In this document: positions 10,825 through 33,975 of the stretch, piece after piece | Numbering within the stretch: the first letter of the stretch is position 1 | How the letters are laid out: each line of letters starts with the position of its first letter | Assembly (NCBI GenBank): GCA_029266455.1 | Contig: JAQSWV010000023.1 | Coordinates: 1-40,398 of the forward strand | Reading direction: 5' to 3' | DNA length: 40,398 nt | DNA from: Nocardioidaceae bacterium | GTDB lineage: Bacteria > Actinomycetota > Actinomycetes > Propionibacteriales > Nocardioidaceae | Position numbers and translations under genes: made by a program | Notes under the pieces: model-generated | Told to the model about the DNA's origin: nothing | The model's input: only the letters and a program-made list of their open reading frames with translations | Databases searched by the model: none

Positions 10825-12135
10825 ATGGAGGTCGTGCGACGCAACGCCTGGACGGTCTACCTGGTTGCGCTGGCCGTGTACGTGCTCGCCGTGTTCCACC
10901 GGTCGTCGCTCGGGGTCGCCGGTATCGAGGCCATGGACCGGTTCGGGCTCTCCGCCGCCGCGCTGGCGACCTTCACCATGGTGCAGCTGCTGGTGTACGT
11001 GGCCATGCAGGTCCCGGTCGGCCTGCTGGTCGACCGCTTCGGCCCCCGGCGGCTGCTCCTGGCCGGCGTGAGCAGCATGACGGTCGGACAGCTCGGATTC
11101 GCCCTGGCCACGGACTACCCGGTGGCGCTGGGCGCCCGGCTGCTCGTGGGTGCGGGCGACGCCATGGTCTTCATCAGCGTGCTGCGCCTGGTGATCACGT
11201 GGTTCGCACCGCTGCGGGTGCCGCTCATGACCCAGCTCACCGGTGTGACCGGGCAGCTCGGCACCGTGGTGGCCGCCGTCCCGATGTTGTACGCGCTCGA
11301 CGCCCTCGGCTGGACCGCCACGTACCTCATCGGTGTCGGCGTCGGGGTCGTGCTCGGCATCGGCCTGCTCATCGTCGTTCGCGACAGCCCGGCGCAGACC
11401 AGCATGAGCGGCCCGGCCGTCTCGTTCCGGGAGGTCATGCACAACTTGCGGCTGGCCTGGGACGAGCCCGGCACAAGGCTCGGCCTGTGGACACACTTCA
11501 CCACACAGTTCGGAGCCACGGTGCTCGCGCTGCTGTGGGGCTACCCGTTCCTGGTACGGGGCGAGGGCCTGGACCAGGCGGCGGCGGGGCTGCTGCTCAC
11601 GCTGATCACCGTGGCCTCGATGGCCAGTGGGCCGGTGGTCGGCCAACTGGTCGCCACCCGGCCCTTCCACCGCTCGTCCATGGTGCTGGGCATCGTGGGC
11701 GCGATCGTGTTGGCCTGGACGGCGGTGCTGGCCTGGCCGGGTCCGGCGCCGATGTGGCTGCTCGTGCTGTTGGTGCTCGCGGTCGGTGTCGGAGGCCCCG
11801 CCTCGATCGTCGGCTTCGACTTCGCCCGGTCCTTCAACCCCGTCGAGCGGGTCGGCAGCGCCACCGGGATCGTCAACCAGGGGGGGTTCATCGCGAGCCT
11901 GACGGTGGTCGTGGCCATCGGCATCGTGCTCGACTGGCGCACCCCGGGCGGCGGTACGGCCTACACGCCCGACGCCTTCCGCTGGGCCATGTCGGTGCAG
12001 TACGTGCTGTGGGTCGTCGGCGGCCTGCAGATCTGGCGCTATCGCCGACTCGCCAGACGCAGGCTGGCGGCGACCGACCCGGAGGCGTACGCAGCGCTGC
12101 GGCGCCACGGCCCTGTGCTGAGTCGCGGCACCTAG
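10825..12135 (+). CDS. MFS transporter
   Basis: Major facilitator superfamily protein of 436 residues with about twelve membrane helices. The loop 2-3 signature is visible as GLLVDRFGPRRLLLAGVSS, helix 4 begins ARLLVGAGDAMVF, and a cytosolic loop divides the halves around REVMHNLRLAWDEPG. It should be a proton-coupled transporter in the cytoplasmic membrane; direction and substrate are not evident. ATG 10825 gives MEVVRRNAWTVYL directly before helix 1; an upstream reading would add a low-complexity stretch. The ribosome-binding site is weak. It stands alone between the dehydrogenase operon and a repeat tract and is convergent to the phytase-like gene. Confidence 0.87.
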   Translation: MEVVRRNAWTVYLVALAVYVLAVFHRSSLGVAGIEAMDRFGLSAAALATFTMVQLLVYVAMQVPVGLLVDRFGPRRLLLAGVSSMTVGQLGFALATDYPVALGARLLVGAGDAMVFISVLRLVITWFAPLRVPLMTQLTGVTGQLGTVVAAVPMLYALDALGWTATYLIGVGVGVVLGIGLLIVVRDSPAQTSMSGPAVSFREVMHNLRLAWDEPGTRLGLWTHFTTQFGATVLALLWGYPFLVRGEGLDQAAAGLLLTLITVASMASGPVVGQLVATRPFHRSSMVLGIVGAIVLAWTAVLAWPGPAPMWLLVLLVLAVGVGGPASIVGFDFARSFNPVERVGSATGIVNQGGFIASLTVVVAIGIVLDWRTPGGGTAYTPDAFRWAMSVQYVLWVVGGLQIWRYRRLARRRLAATDPEAYAALRRHGPVLSRGT

Positions 12136-12310
12136 CTCCGCCGCACCTGGCCCCGTCGCACCTGGCTCCGCCGCACCTGGCTCGCGGCGCCCAGTCCCGA
12201 ACCCGCGCTCCGCCGCACCTGGCTCCGCCGCACCTGGATCCGCGCACCTGGCTCCGCCGCACCTGGCTCGCGGCGCCATGTTCCGGACCCGCGCTCCGCC
12301 GCACCTGTCT
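12127..12310. repeat. Tandem CTCCGCCGCACCTGG-type repeats with hairpins
   Basis: A 15-bp unit CTCCGCCGCACCTGG and variants recurs about eight times between the convergent MFS and phytase-like genes, beginning just before the MFS stop. Within it a longer unit of about 57 bp occurs twice, starting at 12167 and 12253. Each long unit contains CGCCGC-ACCTGGCTC-GCGGCG, a 6-bp stem with 9-base loop (12169-12189 and 12255-12275). The hairpins could act as bidirectional terminators for the two converging genes. Frames through it read as Ala-Pro-Pro-His-Leu repeats and do not look like a protein. Confidence 0.8.
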
Positions 12311-12344
12311 CGCAGCGGGAAACGGCTCAGCGCCGCTGCACCCG

Positions 12345-20659: not shown

Positions 20660-22522
20660 TCAGAAGGCGCTTTCGTCGACGTCCATGACGGCGAGATCGG
20701 TTGCTTCGGCCACCTGTCTGTCGGCTGACAGCCCGGGCAGCACCGTTCGGGTGAAGAAGGATGCCGCCGCCACCTTGCCGTCGTAGAAGGCCCGGTCCGC
20801 GCCGGCTGCACCCTGGTCGAGGCGAGCTGTCGCCACCTCGGCCTGACGGAGCAGCAGCCACGCGCAGACCACGTCGCCCAGCGCCATCAACAGCCGGGTC
20901 GTGTTCAGGCCCGCGCGGTAGACGTTGCGGCGGTCGCCGCCGGTGAGACGCGGATCGGCCGCGGTCAGCTGCGCCGTCATCGCCGCCACGATGCCGAGCG
21001 CGTCGGCCAGTCCCCGGCCTAGCAGCCCTCGCTCGATCTTCAGCCGGCCGTTGCCGGCATCCGAGTCGACGAACTGCTGCACCACGCCGGACAGGTGGTC
21101 CAGTGCCACCGCGCCGTCCTTGACGATCTTGCGGAAGAACAGGTCCTGTCCCTGGATGGCCGTGGTCCCCTCGTACAGCGTGTCGATCTTCGCGTCGCGT
21201 ACGTACTGCTCCAGCGGGTAGTCCTGCAGGAACCCGGAGCCGCCCAGGGTCTGCAGCGACTCGGTCCCGAGCAGCACCCACGAGCGCTCCGAGCCGTAGC
21301 CCTTGACGATCGGCAGCAGCAGCTCGTTGACTCGCTCGGCCAGCAGGTCGCGCTCGCCGCGGGCGGCCGCTGTCGCCACCGTGTCCTGCCAGGAGGCGGT
21401 GTAGAGCACCAGCGCACGCAGGCCCTCGGCATAGGCCTTCTGGGTCATCAGCGACCTGCGGACGTCGGGGTGGGAGATGATGGTGACCCGGGGTGCGGTG
21501 CGGTCCGACGCGTGGGCGAGGTCCGCGCCCTGCACGCGGCTCTTGGCGTAGTCCAGCGCGTTGAGGTAGCCCGTCGACAACGTGGCGATGGCCTTGGTGC
21601 CGACCATCATCCGGGCGTTCTCGATCAGCTGGAACATCTGCGCGATGCCGTCGTGGACCTCACCGAGCAGCCATCCGCGGGCCGGCTCTCGCTCGCCGAG
21701 GGTGAGCTCGCACGTGGTCGAGACCTTGATGCCCAGCTTCTTCTCCAACGCGGTGACGTAGACCCCGTTGCGCGCGCCCGTCAGCTCGCCGGTCTCCAGG
21801 TCGAAGTGGTGCTTGGGGAGCAGGAAGAGACTCAGCCCCTTGGTACCCGGGCCGCCGACGCCCTCCACACCCACCGGGCGCGCCAGCACCAGGTGGACGA
21901 TGTTCTCGCTCAGGTCGTGATCGCCCGAGGTGATGAAGCGCTTCACCCCCTGTAGGTGCCAGCTGCCGTCCGGCTGCGGGAACGCCTTGGTGCGCCCGGC
22001 CCCGACATCGGATCCGGCGTCGGGCTCGGTGAGCACCATCGTCGATGTCCACTGGCGGTCGATCATGTGCTGGGCGATGCGTCGGTCTCGTTCGGTGCCG
22101 TTGCGGTAGACGACTCCGGCGAAGTGTGGGCCGCAGGCGTACAACCACACCGCCGGGTTGGCGCCGAGAACGAGCTCGGCCATGGCCCACAACAGGGACG
22201 GCGGCGCGGGTTGGCCGCCGAGTCCGGTCGGCACCTGCAGTCGCCACCACTCGGCATCCATCCACGTGGCGTAGCTCTGGGCGAAGGTCGCCGGCATCCG
22301 GACGCTGTGCGCGCCGGGGTCGAAGACCGGCGGCGTGCGGTCGGAGTCCGTGAACGACGCGGCGAGCTCAGTGCTGGCGAGCCGCTCGACCTCGGTCAGG
22401 ATCGTCCGGGCCGTGTCCACGTCCAGCTCGGCGAACGGGCCGGATCCGAGCACCTCGCCCCGCCCCAGCACCTCGAAGAGCAGAAACTCGATGTCGCGCA
22501 GGTTGCTCCGGTAGTGACCCAT
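20660..22522 (-). CDS. fadE5: Acyl-CoA dehydrogenase, FadE5-like
   Basis: Flavin-dependent acyl-CoA dehydrogenase of 620 residues, the long form. It begins [20 protein letters not shown] and includes [19 protein letters not shown] (FAD/substrate loop), [20 protein letters not shown] and catalytic-base candidate Glu451 in [15 protein letters not shown]. It closely matches what I recall of mycobacterial FadE5, which takes a wide range of acyl-CoA chain lengths in beta-oxidation. The ATG at 22522 has an AGGAG site at 22529-22533, and a 28-bp palindromic operator overlaps that site, so repression by a TetR-type regulator is likely. No thiolase or regulator gene is adjacent. Confidence 0.92.
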
Positions 22523-22531
22523 CCCCGGCTC

Positions 22532-22559
22532 CTAAGTTACTTACCAGTAAGTAACTTAG
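22532..22559. promoter_or_regulatory. 28-bp palindromic operator upstream of the fadE5-like gene
   Basis: CTAAGTTACTTAC (22532-22544) and GTAAGTAACTTAG (22547-22559) are perfect complements around a 2-base centre. The palindrome starts 10 bp upstream of the fadE5-like ATG and touches its ribosome-binding site, so a bound repressor would block transcription. Its core TTACTTAC...GTAAGTAA has the size and symmetry of TetR-family sites. TAnnnT hexamers inside it could serve as -10 boxes. It is strikingly AT-rich for this genome. Confidence 0.85.
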
Positions 22560-22595
22560 TATGCCCCACGCGTCCAGAAGTGTCGATCCGCACCT

Positions 22596-22710
22596 CCCAG
22601 GCGCCGATCCGCGACTTGTGCAGGTCCACCCTTCCCCACCCAGGCGTCGATCCGCGACTTGTGCAGGTCCGCCCTCCCCACCCAGGCGCCGATCCGCGAC
22701 TTGTGCAGGT
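22596..22710. repeat. Three direct repeats with core CGATCCGCGACTTGTGCAGG
   Basis: A 30-bp unit occurs at 22596-22625, 22639-22668 and 22681-22710 (periods 43 and 42 bp), differing at single bases, with similar CT-rich spacers between. A degenerate partial copy may precede it near 22579. An inverted copy lies at 23328-23358. The array fills the gap between the SRPBCC gene and the fadE5-like gene. No gene seen. Confidence 0.85.
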
Positions 22711-22769
22711 GAGATGACGCTGAGGCGCTCAATGCGGTCGGGCGACGGGATCTGGAAACCACGTCCCGG

Positions 22770-23216
22770 CTAGAGCCGGTCGAGATTGCGTTGGATGCCC
22801 TGCTGGGCTCCGTCCCCGAGCCGCTTGAATGGCAGGTTCAGCACCGGGAGGGAGAACAACGGGTCGAGCCGGCGGAGCATCCCGCGGAACTCCAGTTGAG
22901 CCACGTAGTGCACCCGGGTGCCCGACCCCTGCGGGGTCATGGTGATGGTGTCGGTGGCGGTCACCGACTCGTTCTCGCCACGCAGTTGGATGCGCGTGGG
23001 AGCGCTGCTCTCCACGACCGTGTAGACGAGCTGCGTCTCCCGGCCGAGGAACTTCGAGGTGTTGTGGTACTCGGTGCCGACCTCCCCGTTCCCGGTGCGG
23101 CGGACCGTACGGACGGTACCGGGGTCCCACTCGTTGGTGGTGGTGAAGTCGGAGAGGTAGGCCCACACGGCCTCGGGCGACGCGGTGGTCGTGATGGTGC
23201 GTTCGATGGTCGGCAT
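22770..23216 (-). CDS. SRPBCC / polyketide-cyclase-like protein
   Basis: Protein of 148 residues with the START-like SRPBCC fold: start MPTIERTITTTASPEAVWAY, then LSDFTTTNEWDPGTVRTVRR and a long C-terminal helix RGMLRRLDPLFSLPVLNLPF. Such proteins form a deep cavity for hydrophobic ligands; many actinobacterial single-domain members have no known ligand. It is flanked on both sides by copies of one repeat family in opposite orientation. ATG 23216. No operon partner; function unknown. Confidence 0.82.
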   Translation of the reverse strand: MPTIERTITTTASPEAVWAYLSDFTTTNEWDPGTVRTVRRTGNGEVGTEYHNTSKFLGRETQLVYTVVESSAPTRIQLRGENESVTATDTITMTPQGSGTRVHYVAQLEFRGMLRRLDPLFSLPVLNLPFKRLGDGAQQGIQRNLDRL

Positions 23217-23327: not shown

Positions 23328-23358
23328 CCTGCACAACTCGCGGATCGCCGGGGTGGGG
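23328..23358 (-). repeat. Inverted copy of the 22.6-kb repeat
   Basis: CCTGCACAACTCGCGGATCG and following bases are the complement of the 22596-22710 unit with a few changes. It lies between the PhzF-like and SRPBCC genes and runs into a G-tract. Confidence 0.75.
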
Positions 23359-32893: not shown

Positions 32894-33975
32894 CAACCCT
32901 GGTCTTCGGTCCATCCCCAGTCGAGGTCGCTCACGGCGAGCCGCGCGAGGAGCCCGACGGCACGCTGGTGTGCGCGGCGGTCCGTGACGTCACTCACGAC
33001 GTACGGAGCTTCGTGCTGCGGCCGGCCCAGCTCACGGCGTATGGGTTCCTGCCGGGGCAGCACCTCACGCTGACGGTGGACGTGGGTGGGCAGGTGCTCA
33101 GCCGCTGCTACACCATCGCGTCCTCGCCTTGCCGGCCCGACGAGCTGACGATCACCGTGAAACGCGTGCCCGGCGGACCGGTGTCGAACTGGCTGCACGA
33201 CCACCTGCGGCCCGGCGACGCCGTGGTCGTCGACGGTCCGCTCGGCAGCTTCAGCACCGCACACCACCCCGCCGAGCGGTATCTCTTCCTCTCCGCGGGA
33301 AGCGGGATCACGCCGCTGATGTCCATGCTGCGCACGATCCACGCAGCCGGCGAGCCGGTCGACGTGGTGTTCGTGCACCATGCCCGCACACCGGCCGACA
33401 TCATCTTCCGCGACGAGCTGCGAGTGATCGAGGCCGACCACCCGGGCGTCCGGGTGGTCGTCGTGTGCGAGGGCGACGCAGAGCACGAGCAGTGGACCGG
33501 CCCGCGTGGCCGGGTAGCGCTCCCGATGCTGCTCGGCGTCGCTCCGGATCTCGTCGACCGCGAGGTGTTCACGTGCGGCCCCGCACCGTACATGGAGGCG
33601 GTGCGGGGGCTGCTCACTCAGGCCGGCGCCGACCCGGACAGGTACCACGAGGAGTCGTTCGACCTCGCCCCACCTGCCGCGCCGGCCGCTCCGGCCCGGT
33701 CGTCCAGCGGCGCGACGTACATGGTCGAGCTGCGGCGGACCGGCCGCACGGTCGAGTGCGACGAGCACACCACGCTGCTGGCAGCCGCGGCACAGTCGGG
33801 CCTGAGCCTGCCTTCGTCATGCCAGGAGGGGATGTGCGGCACCTGCAAGACCACCTTGCTGTCAGGCCGCGTCGCGATGGAGCACGCCGGCGGCATCCGG
33901 CCCCGCGAGATCGCGCAGGACAAGATCCTGCTCTGCTGCTCGACGCCGTGCGACGACCTGGTCCTCGACGCTTGA
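32890..33975 (+). CDS. gbcB: Ferredoxin-reductase component, GbcB-like
   Basis: Electron-transfer protein of 361 residues: FAD domain (RCYTIAS at 72-78), NAD domain (SAGSGITPLMSMLRTIHAAG at 135-154, FTCGPAPYMEAVR), and a C-terminal plant-type [2Fe-2S] domain with CQEGMCGTC (Cys311, 316, 319) and the fourth ligand in LLCCSTP (349/350). It would pass NADH electrons to the Rieske oxygenase, as GbcB does for GbcA. Its start overlaps the oxygenase stop by 4 bp. It is convergent with the siderophore-interacting gene, 7 bp apart, with no visible terminator between. Confidence 0.88.
   Translation: MTTLVFGPSPVEVAHGEPREEPDGTLVCAAVRDVTHDVRSFVLRPAQLTAYGFLPGQHLTLTVDVGGQVLSRCYTIASSPCRPDELTITVKRVPGGPVSNWLHDHLRPGDAVVVDGPLGSFSTAHHPAERYLFLSAGSGITPLMSMLRTIHAAGEPVDVVFVHHARTPADIIFRDELRVIEADHPGVRVVVVCEGDAEHEQWTGPRGRVALPMLLGVAPDLVDREVFTCGPAPYMEAVRGLLTQAGADPDRYHEESFDLAPPAAPAAPARSSSGATYMVELRRTGRTVECDEHTTLLAAAAQSGLSLPSSCQEGMCGTCKTTLLSGRVAMEHAGGIRPREIAQDKILLCCSTPCDDLVLDA

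Follow-up and report, generated by a model that had tools for sequence, protein, structure and literature searches.

The closest described relatives of the locus analysed here are TetR-type FasR systems that control lipid synthesis in Mycobacterium tuberculosis and Corynebacterium glutamicum. According to the accessible parts of PMC7382501, M. tuberculosis FasR is an activator that binds three inverted repeats before fas-acpS, its binding is disrupted by acyl-CoA of C16 or longer, and the FasR-DNA crystal used a 25-mer. C. glutamicum FasR is described as a repressor that acts on accBC, accD1 and the genes of fatty acid synthesis. Streptomyces FasR (SCO2386), which belongs to a different protein family, is presented in a partly accessible source as the activator of a fatty acid synthesis operon. 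For the mycobacterial lipid-sensing regulators MadR and MftR, the accessible source text gives the motifs TCTGTGxxxxxxxGT and T-N2-GGCA-N5-TGCC-N2-A, respectively. A 28-bp operator bound by two dimers is known from the QacR type of regulation.

The window considered here is the whole analysed stretch of 40,398 nucleotides from a Nocardioidaceae bacterium (assembly GCA_029266455.1, contig JAQSWV010000023.1). Based on sequence comparisons, we propose that a 28-bp palindrome within it is quite likely the operator by which a TetR regulator of the FasR type, whose gene lies outside the window (C64), would repress the gene of a FadE5-like acyl-CoA dehydrogenase, and that operators of this kind very probably precede its counterparts in many further Actinobacteria. 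The features concerned are the following.

20660 to 22522, minus strand: FadE5-like acyl-CoA dehydrogenase of 620 aa, the proposed regulated gene (Pfam)
22529 to 22533, minus strand: AGGAG of the Shine-Dalgarno kind, separated from the ATG by 6 bases and sharing 2 bp with the palindrome (read from the sequence)
22532 to 22559, no strand: 28-bp palindrome, the proposed doubled FasR-type operator (sequence and shuffles)
22536 to 22551, minus strand: Box B, CTTACTGGTAAGTAAC, 18.4 bits, offset from Box A by 4 bp (matrix from orthologue sites)
22540 to 22555, minus strand: Box A, GTTACTTACTGGTAAG, 17.5 bits (matrix from orthologue sites)
22558 to 22563, minus strand: predicted -10 hexamer CATACT, sharing 2 bp with the upstream end of the palindrome (consensus match)
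22581 to 22586, minus strand: predicted -35 hexamer TCGACA, with a 17-bp spacer to the -10 hexamer (consensus match)

The dehydrogenase gene matches three acyl-CoA dehydrogenase Pfam families above their cut-offs; the name FadE5-like is that of the initial annotation, and we adopt it as an assumption. As that annotation had it, the palindrome is perfect, with 13-bp arms around a 2-bp centre (CTAAGTTACTTAC-CA-GTAAGTAACTTAG), it is unusually AT-rich (G+C content of 0.32 compared with 0.71 for the window) and it lies close to the start codon, although the distance given as 10 bp is in fact the 9 bases 22523-22531, which separate it from the ATG at 22522. No other perfect inverted repeat in the window with arms of at least 10 bp and a loop of up to 8 bases has arms as long, and arms of at least 13 bp were seen once among 30 first-order Markov copies of the window. 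Allowing up to three mismatches, the core TTACTTAC-N2-GTAAGTAA occurs once in the window, compared with none in 100 shuffles, and at this tolerance no second copy of the full core was found in the draft genome of 3.43 Mb, in which the pattern and its backwards control each gave one place. The 18-base core with up to two mismatches was likewise not enriched among 58 relatives, in which it was found in 10 places versus 10 for the reversed control, and it is present at the dehydrogenase gene in four of these 58.

Several other repeats lie in the window. A perfect, G+C-rich inverted repeat at 33435-33460 has 11-bp arms that enclose a 4-base loop, and 12124-12317 is occupied by tandem repeats that overlap one another and have periods of 15, 42 and 86 bases, the shortest unit being CGCCGCACCTGGCTC. 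Just upstream of the predicted promoter, a tandem array at 22596-22710 (period 42, 2.7 copies) contains three exact copies of GATCCGCGACTTGTGCAGG, and an inverted copy with one mismatch is present at 23328-23346. In the same genome the GATCCGCGACTTGTGCAGG core recurs three times in locus L105 and twice in L112, which suggests that it is a dispersed repeat there.

What is conserved before the dehydrogenase gene is a shorter pseudo-palindrome, GTTACY-NRYN-RGTAAC, which is found in nearly all of the 80 orthologue upstreams listed. These represent the 80 best matches of a longer list, all from named actinobacterial genomes and with 61-72% identity over their best segments, from genera that include Streptomyces, Actinomadura, Micromonospora, Jiangella, Kribbella, Nocardioides and Aeromicrobium. 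The motif is the consensus of a symmetric matrix that was built from 107 sites, namely these 80 upstreams and 29 others with L024 and L036 excluded. A box of at least 12 bits lies no more than 200 bp upstream of the gene in 78 of the 80 listed orthologues compared with 11 of 723,617 16-mers elsewhere in the same loci, and it is this contrast with the background, rather than the score itself, that is the evidence, since the upstreams trained the matrix. The two listed upstreams lacking such a box are those of Rhodococcus (L024) and Nocardia (L036). In addition, a box of at least 5 bits is present in all 29 order-level loci besides the window, which were fetched from 80 matched genomes and are part of the training set.

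Many of these upstreams contain more than one box. Two or more of 5 bits are found in 64 of the 80 listed upstreams, mostly 24-26 bp apart, and 19 of the 29 order-level loci have two, with a spacing of 23-25 bp in 16 of them and of 13 bp in three (L229, L246 and L250, where the second box is weak at 6.2-6.8 bits). In the window the two boxes are only 4 bp apart and score 17.5 and 18.4 bits; the palindrome can be read as a merged pair. A similar overlapping pair is present in three genomes of the same family (L006, L008 and L009/L010), in which the second box is weaker, at 8.9-10.5 bits. The long palindrome itself is not repeated among the two best palindromes listed for each of the 80 orthologue upstreams, and only L031 has a palindrome of the box type there, with 8-bp arms.

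The regulator that would read this site does not appear to be dedicated to it. The initial annotation had assumed a dedicated repressor and noted that none is encoded nearby. The latter holds, as none of the 15 TetR_N matches of the genome is on the window contig, while a single dedicated repressor is probably to be abandoned, given that a relaxed form of the box also precedes a second acyl-CoA dehydrogenase gene and lipid genes of relatives. With up to one mismatch, TTACYNRYNRGTAA has a sole own-genome place outside the window, G000:C86:23674, with a matrix score of 12.2 and located 30 bp before this second dehydrogenase gene, which shows 73-74% identity to five genes of family f4, all of them box-bearing. 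The search gave three true matches compared with five for the reversed control, and hence the C86 site counts for its gene and its conserved counterparts and not for its rarity. Taken literally, the genome search suggested with the initial annotation finds no second copy of the full core, and a further copy is found for the shorter box. When searched with up to two mismatches, GTTACTNNNNAGTAAC gave nine own-genome places, two in the window and seven elsewhere, versus eight for the control; no lipid gene was seen after the seven, several of which are inside called genes, the genes at these places being mostly untyped.

The wider set of 69 box loci in relatives and in the own genome was returned by pattern searches and is not a random sample, and the 10 genomes that gave 38 forward places and 4 control places were chosen for having shown several sites earlier. 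Among the 69, the site precedes an orthologue of the window gene in 14 (three of which are the window itself), is at or before other acyl-CoA dehydrogenase genes in eight, and precedes genes of the ETF (electron-transfer flavoprotein) type in six, one of them typed; gene typing left out L149, L150 and L160. The box also precedes genes for a DUF4442 protein in L142, a fatty-acid desaturase in L148 and an Fe-S protein in L152, as well as ill-fitting ones in relatives, including those for a LigD-type primase, GAPDH and a solute-binding protein; genes for an alcohol dehydrogenase and others occur too. A strong box lies upstream of a typed gene for an HlyIII-family membrane protein at L063:8147 and L070:8854, and similarly placed boxes of at least 12 bits are found in L069, L073, L075, L080, L081 and L084, whose genes are untyped, making the HlyIII-family gene a possible further member of the regulon. 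At L031:5110 and L090:6559 a 17.7-bit box is flanked by a histidine-phosphatase gene and by a small one, typed as DUF6458 in L031.

A fatty-acid regulator of the TetR type had been the initial guess, and the evidence now supports it and points to a homologue of FasR encoded outside the window at G000:C64:29056-29703 (L100). Against the NCBIfam FasR model NF053731, L100 gives an E value of 2e-72 and 243 bits, which is under the curated cut-off of 330, and its best matches of solved structure are 6o6p (E 7.7e-51) and 6o6n, both M. tuberculosis FasR. A 13-residue HTH stretch, RAGVSKPVLYQHF, which we take to be the recognition helix region, is identical in L100 and in PDB 6o6p/6o6n. Of 107 genomes of the order, 80 have FasR together with the dehydrogenase, 26 have neither and one (G037) is discordant, with FasR in 81 and the dehydrogenase in 80 of the 107, although the Fisher p-value overstates this match because few independent events underlie it, the listed shared absences all being in family f2. 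FasR was also found in all 25 named genomes picked from those of the 80 listed orthologues.

The same operator might be read by another regulator, either another TetR protein or a FasR-like paralogue such as L102, which we regard as unlikely. In the 13-residue HTH stretch L102 agrees at 9 positions, and among solved structures it too matches FasR best; the phyletic profiles covered two of the 15 TetR genes and no other regulator class. L102 is present in 70 of the 107 order genomes but was not found (E 1e-40) in 37 of the 80 that hold the dehydrogenase, on which phyletic grounds it was rejected, and the boxes of the fas promoters and of the FasR crystal oligonucleotide (see below) point to FasR itself. 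As for the lipid-sensing regulators mentioned above, the MadR letters TCTGTG are absent from both strands of the palindrome, as are GGCA and TGCC of the MftR motif from the palindrome.

TetR genes that adjoin box sites were also considered. Those at L002, L004 and L005 reach only 31-34 bits on the FasR model and are taken to be local systems; L003 contains a TetR-like fragment, and the TetR of L126 scores 46 bits on the same model. The TetR gene of L159 is located just downstream of a box and was set aside, the box being, by eye, within a long inverted repeat that resembles a terminator. No good box was found at the fasR locus of the genome itself, where the best has 4 mismatches within 1.5 kb. 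Thirty FasR loci were compared, 25 from f3 genomes (all of genus g28) and five from f1 including the own genome. In 23 of the 25 f3 loci (among L198-L224; examples also include L131 and L138), GTTAC-N6-GTAAC with 1-2 mismatches precedes the FasR match by 1.06-1.46 kb, the exceptions being L207 with 3 mismatches and L205 with 4, and the five f1 loci have it at best with 3-4 mismatches. This f3 palindrome is not counted as a sign of fasR autoregulation, as a gene intervenes in the loci examined and the palindrome and the box do not agree in their inner letters. It may belong to a different regulator, and in L131 it precedes a gene with a LigD primase-polymerase domain.

A further link between the box and FasR, the preferred regulator, is the M. 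tuberculosis crystal 25-mer, which holds two box windows that score 7.6 and 5.3 bits and are 13 bp apart, the spacing seen also in L229, L246 and L250. Of 20,000 shuffles, 0.31% attain the best score, as do 0.345% of random 25-mers, and none of 100,000 shuffles attains both scores together. The FAS-I domain PF08354 was looked for in fourteen genomes and is present in five of them; it was not found in the genome of the window. On the matrix derived from the dehydrogenase promoters, fas, the known M. tuberculosis target of FasR, has in Rhodococcus a 16.7-bit box 34 bp before the frame opens, and in Nocardia one of 14.7 bits at 225 bp, with weaker ones of 5.8 and 3.1 bits nearer to the gene. These are the same two genomes that lack the dehydrogenase box, and hence, in the genomes seen, the box is on either fas or the dehydrogenase gene, a comparison that comprises two mycolate genomes (Nocardia and Rhodococcus) and no dehydrogenase promoter of Mycobacterium. 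The promoter regions of the other three of the five FAS-I genes (L295-L297, two of them from Aeromicrobium) have no box, and in L296 an 8.2-bit match is located about 3.4 kb from fas. For the palindrome itself, no control of fatty acid synthesis is seen, within a scope that took in FAS-I and not FAS-II or acc promoters, and we call the operator FasR-type and a variant in its target because the gene is that of an acyl-CoA dehydrogenase and the genome is without the FAS-I domain.

The position of the operator suggests how it would act. A promoter scan of 22400-22900 gave one candidate, TCGACA-17-CATACT on the minus strand, compared with a shuffle mean of 0.1, and -10-like hexamers (CATACT, CATAAT and AATAAT) are found immediately upstream of the box in the relatives L006, L008 and L009/L010. 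A promoter-like pair and a box are both present in 12 of 81 upstreams scanned and overlap in 10 of the 12, versus 5.0 expected from random placement. A protein bound to the site would mask the -10 hexamer, the expected start and the ribosome-binding region. We infer binding by the C64 FasR, repression and an acyl-CoA signal. The palindrome would be a merged pair of FasR boxes set 4 bp apart, forming an operator that reaches from the -10 hexamer to the ribosome-binding site and includes the point where transcription is expected to start. Without fatty acids, one or more FasR dimers would sit on the promoter and silence the gene, and when long-chain acyl-CoA, the kind of substrate that the enzyme uses, binds to FasR the protein would be released, such that an early step of beta-oxidation is induced by its own substrate. 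At a 4-bp offset, the boxes might be used by one dimer that chooses between two registers or by two dimers on different faces.

The direction of regulation rests on this position, since FasR is an activator in M. tuberculosis and a repressor in C. glutamicum. Activation by FasR at this operator, as described for fas-acpS of M. tuberculosis in the accessible text of PMC7382501, appears distinctly improbable, as the site is on the -10 hexamer and the expected start and not upstream of the -35 hexamer, the overlap of promoter and box is twice that expected, and the partly available account of C. glutamicum FasR is that of a repressor. That the palindrome is an RNA element, a terminator hairpin or a chance repeat is very improbable, for although a 13-bp stem could form in the 5' leader and such arms did arise once among the Markov copies, the scan found no terminator-like site (shuffle mean of 0.3), it is the box and not a long hairpin that is conserved (the 8-bp arms of L031 being the only case among the two best palindromes listed for each of the 80 orthologues), and its presence in 78 of those 80 argues against chance.

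With repression by FasR as proposed here, fatty-acid degradation would gain a candidate regulator with its operator in Streptomyces, Micromonospora, Actinomadura, Nocardioides and their relatives, and the proposal leads to the prediction that a regulator studied for its role in M. tuberculosis lipid synthesis has another main target elsewhere. We lean toward a broader interpretation, in which FasR, known from M. tuberculosis and C. glutamicum as the controller of synthesis, is a degradation regulator in many other actinobacteria, with its box on the fadE5-type promoter but in Rhodococcus and Nocardia on fas instead; its main target would have switched in evolution, and the lineage of the window would have fused separate boxes into a palindrome with a 4-bp offset. 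A literature search, to which most subscription journals were closed, gave no link between a TetR-type FasR and a fadE5-type promoter, and none is made in the accessible parts of PMC9301340, PMC8728441, PMC8872791, PMC7382501, PMC6460773, PMC8790568, PMC7324645, PMC5539140 and PMC7807495. FasR operators of lipid synthesis are already known, and what appears to be new here is the target and the box geometry of a putative operator of this type.

Among the closest described systems is the fas-acpS operator of M. tuberculosis and its regulator FasR (Rv3208). The likeness lies in the two TACY-N4-RGTA-like boxes of the crystal oligonucleotide, in the identical 13-residue HTH stretch and in a regulator of the TetR type, for which the sensing of long-chain acyl-CoA is the M. 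tuberculosis case as given in the accessible part of the publication. The two differ in that the target there is synthesis while here it would be beta-oxidation in a genome with no FAS-I domain found, in that the boxes are 13 bp apart there and 4 bp apart here, and in direction, as the position of the site here suggests repression whereas activation is reported for M. tuberculosis FasR. C. glutamicum FasR and fasO are similar in involving a TetR-type FasR that represses lipid genes, a likeness drawn from the available description and not from the fasO motif, but the targets there are accBC, accD1 and fatty acid synthesis. MadR and MftR are also acyl-CoA-responsive TetR regulators of mycobacteria, although the core letters of both motifs are absent from the palindrome. 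Finally, the palindrome resembles an operator of the QacR type in its overlapping symmetric half-sites, which might take two dimers, although the regulator and the ligand are different.
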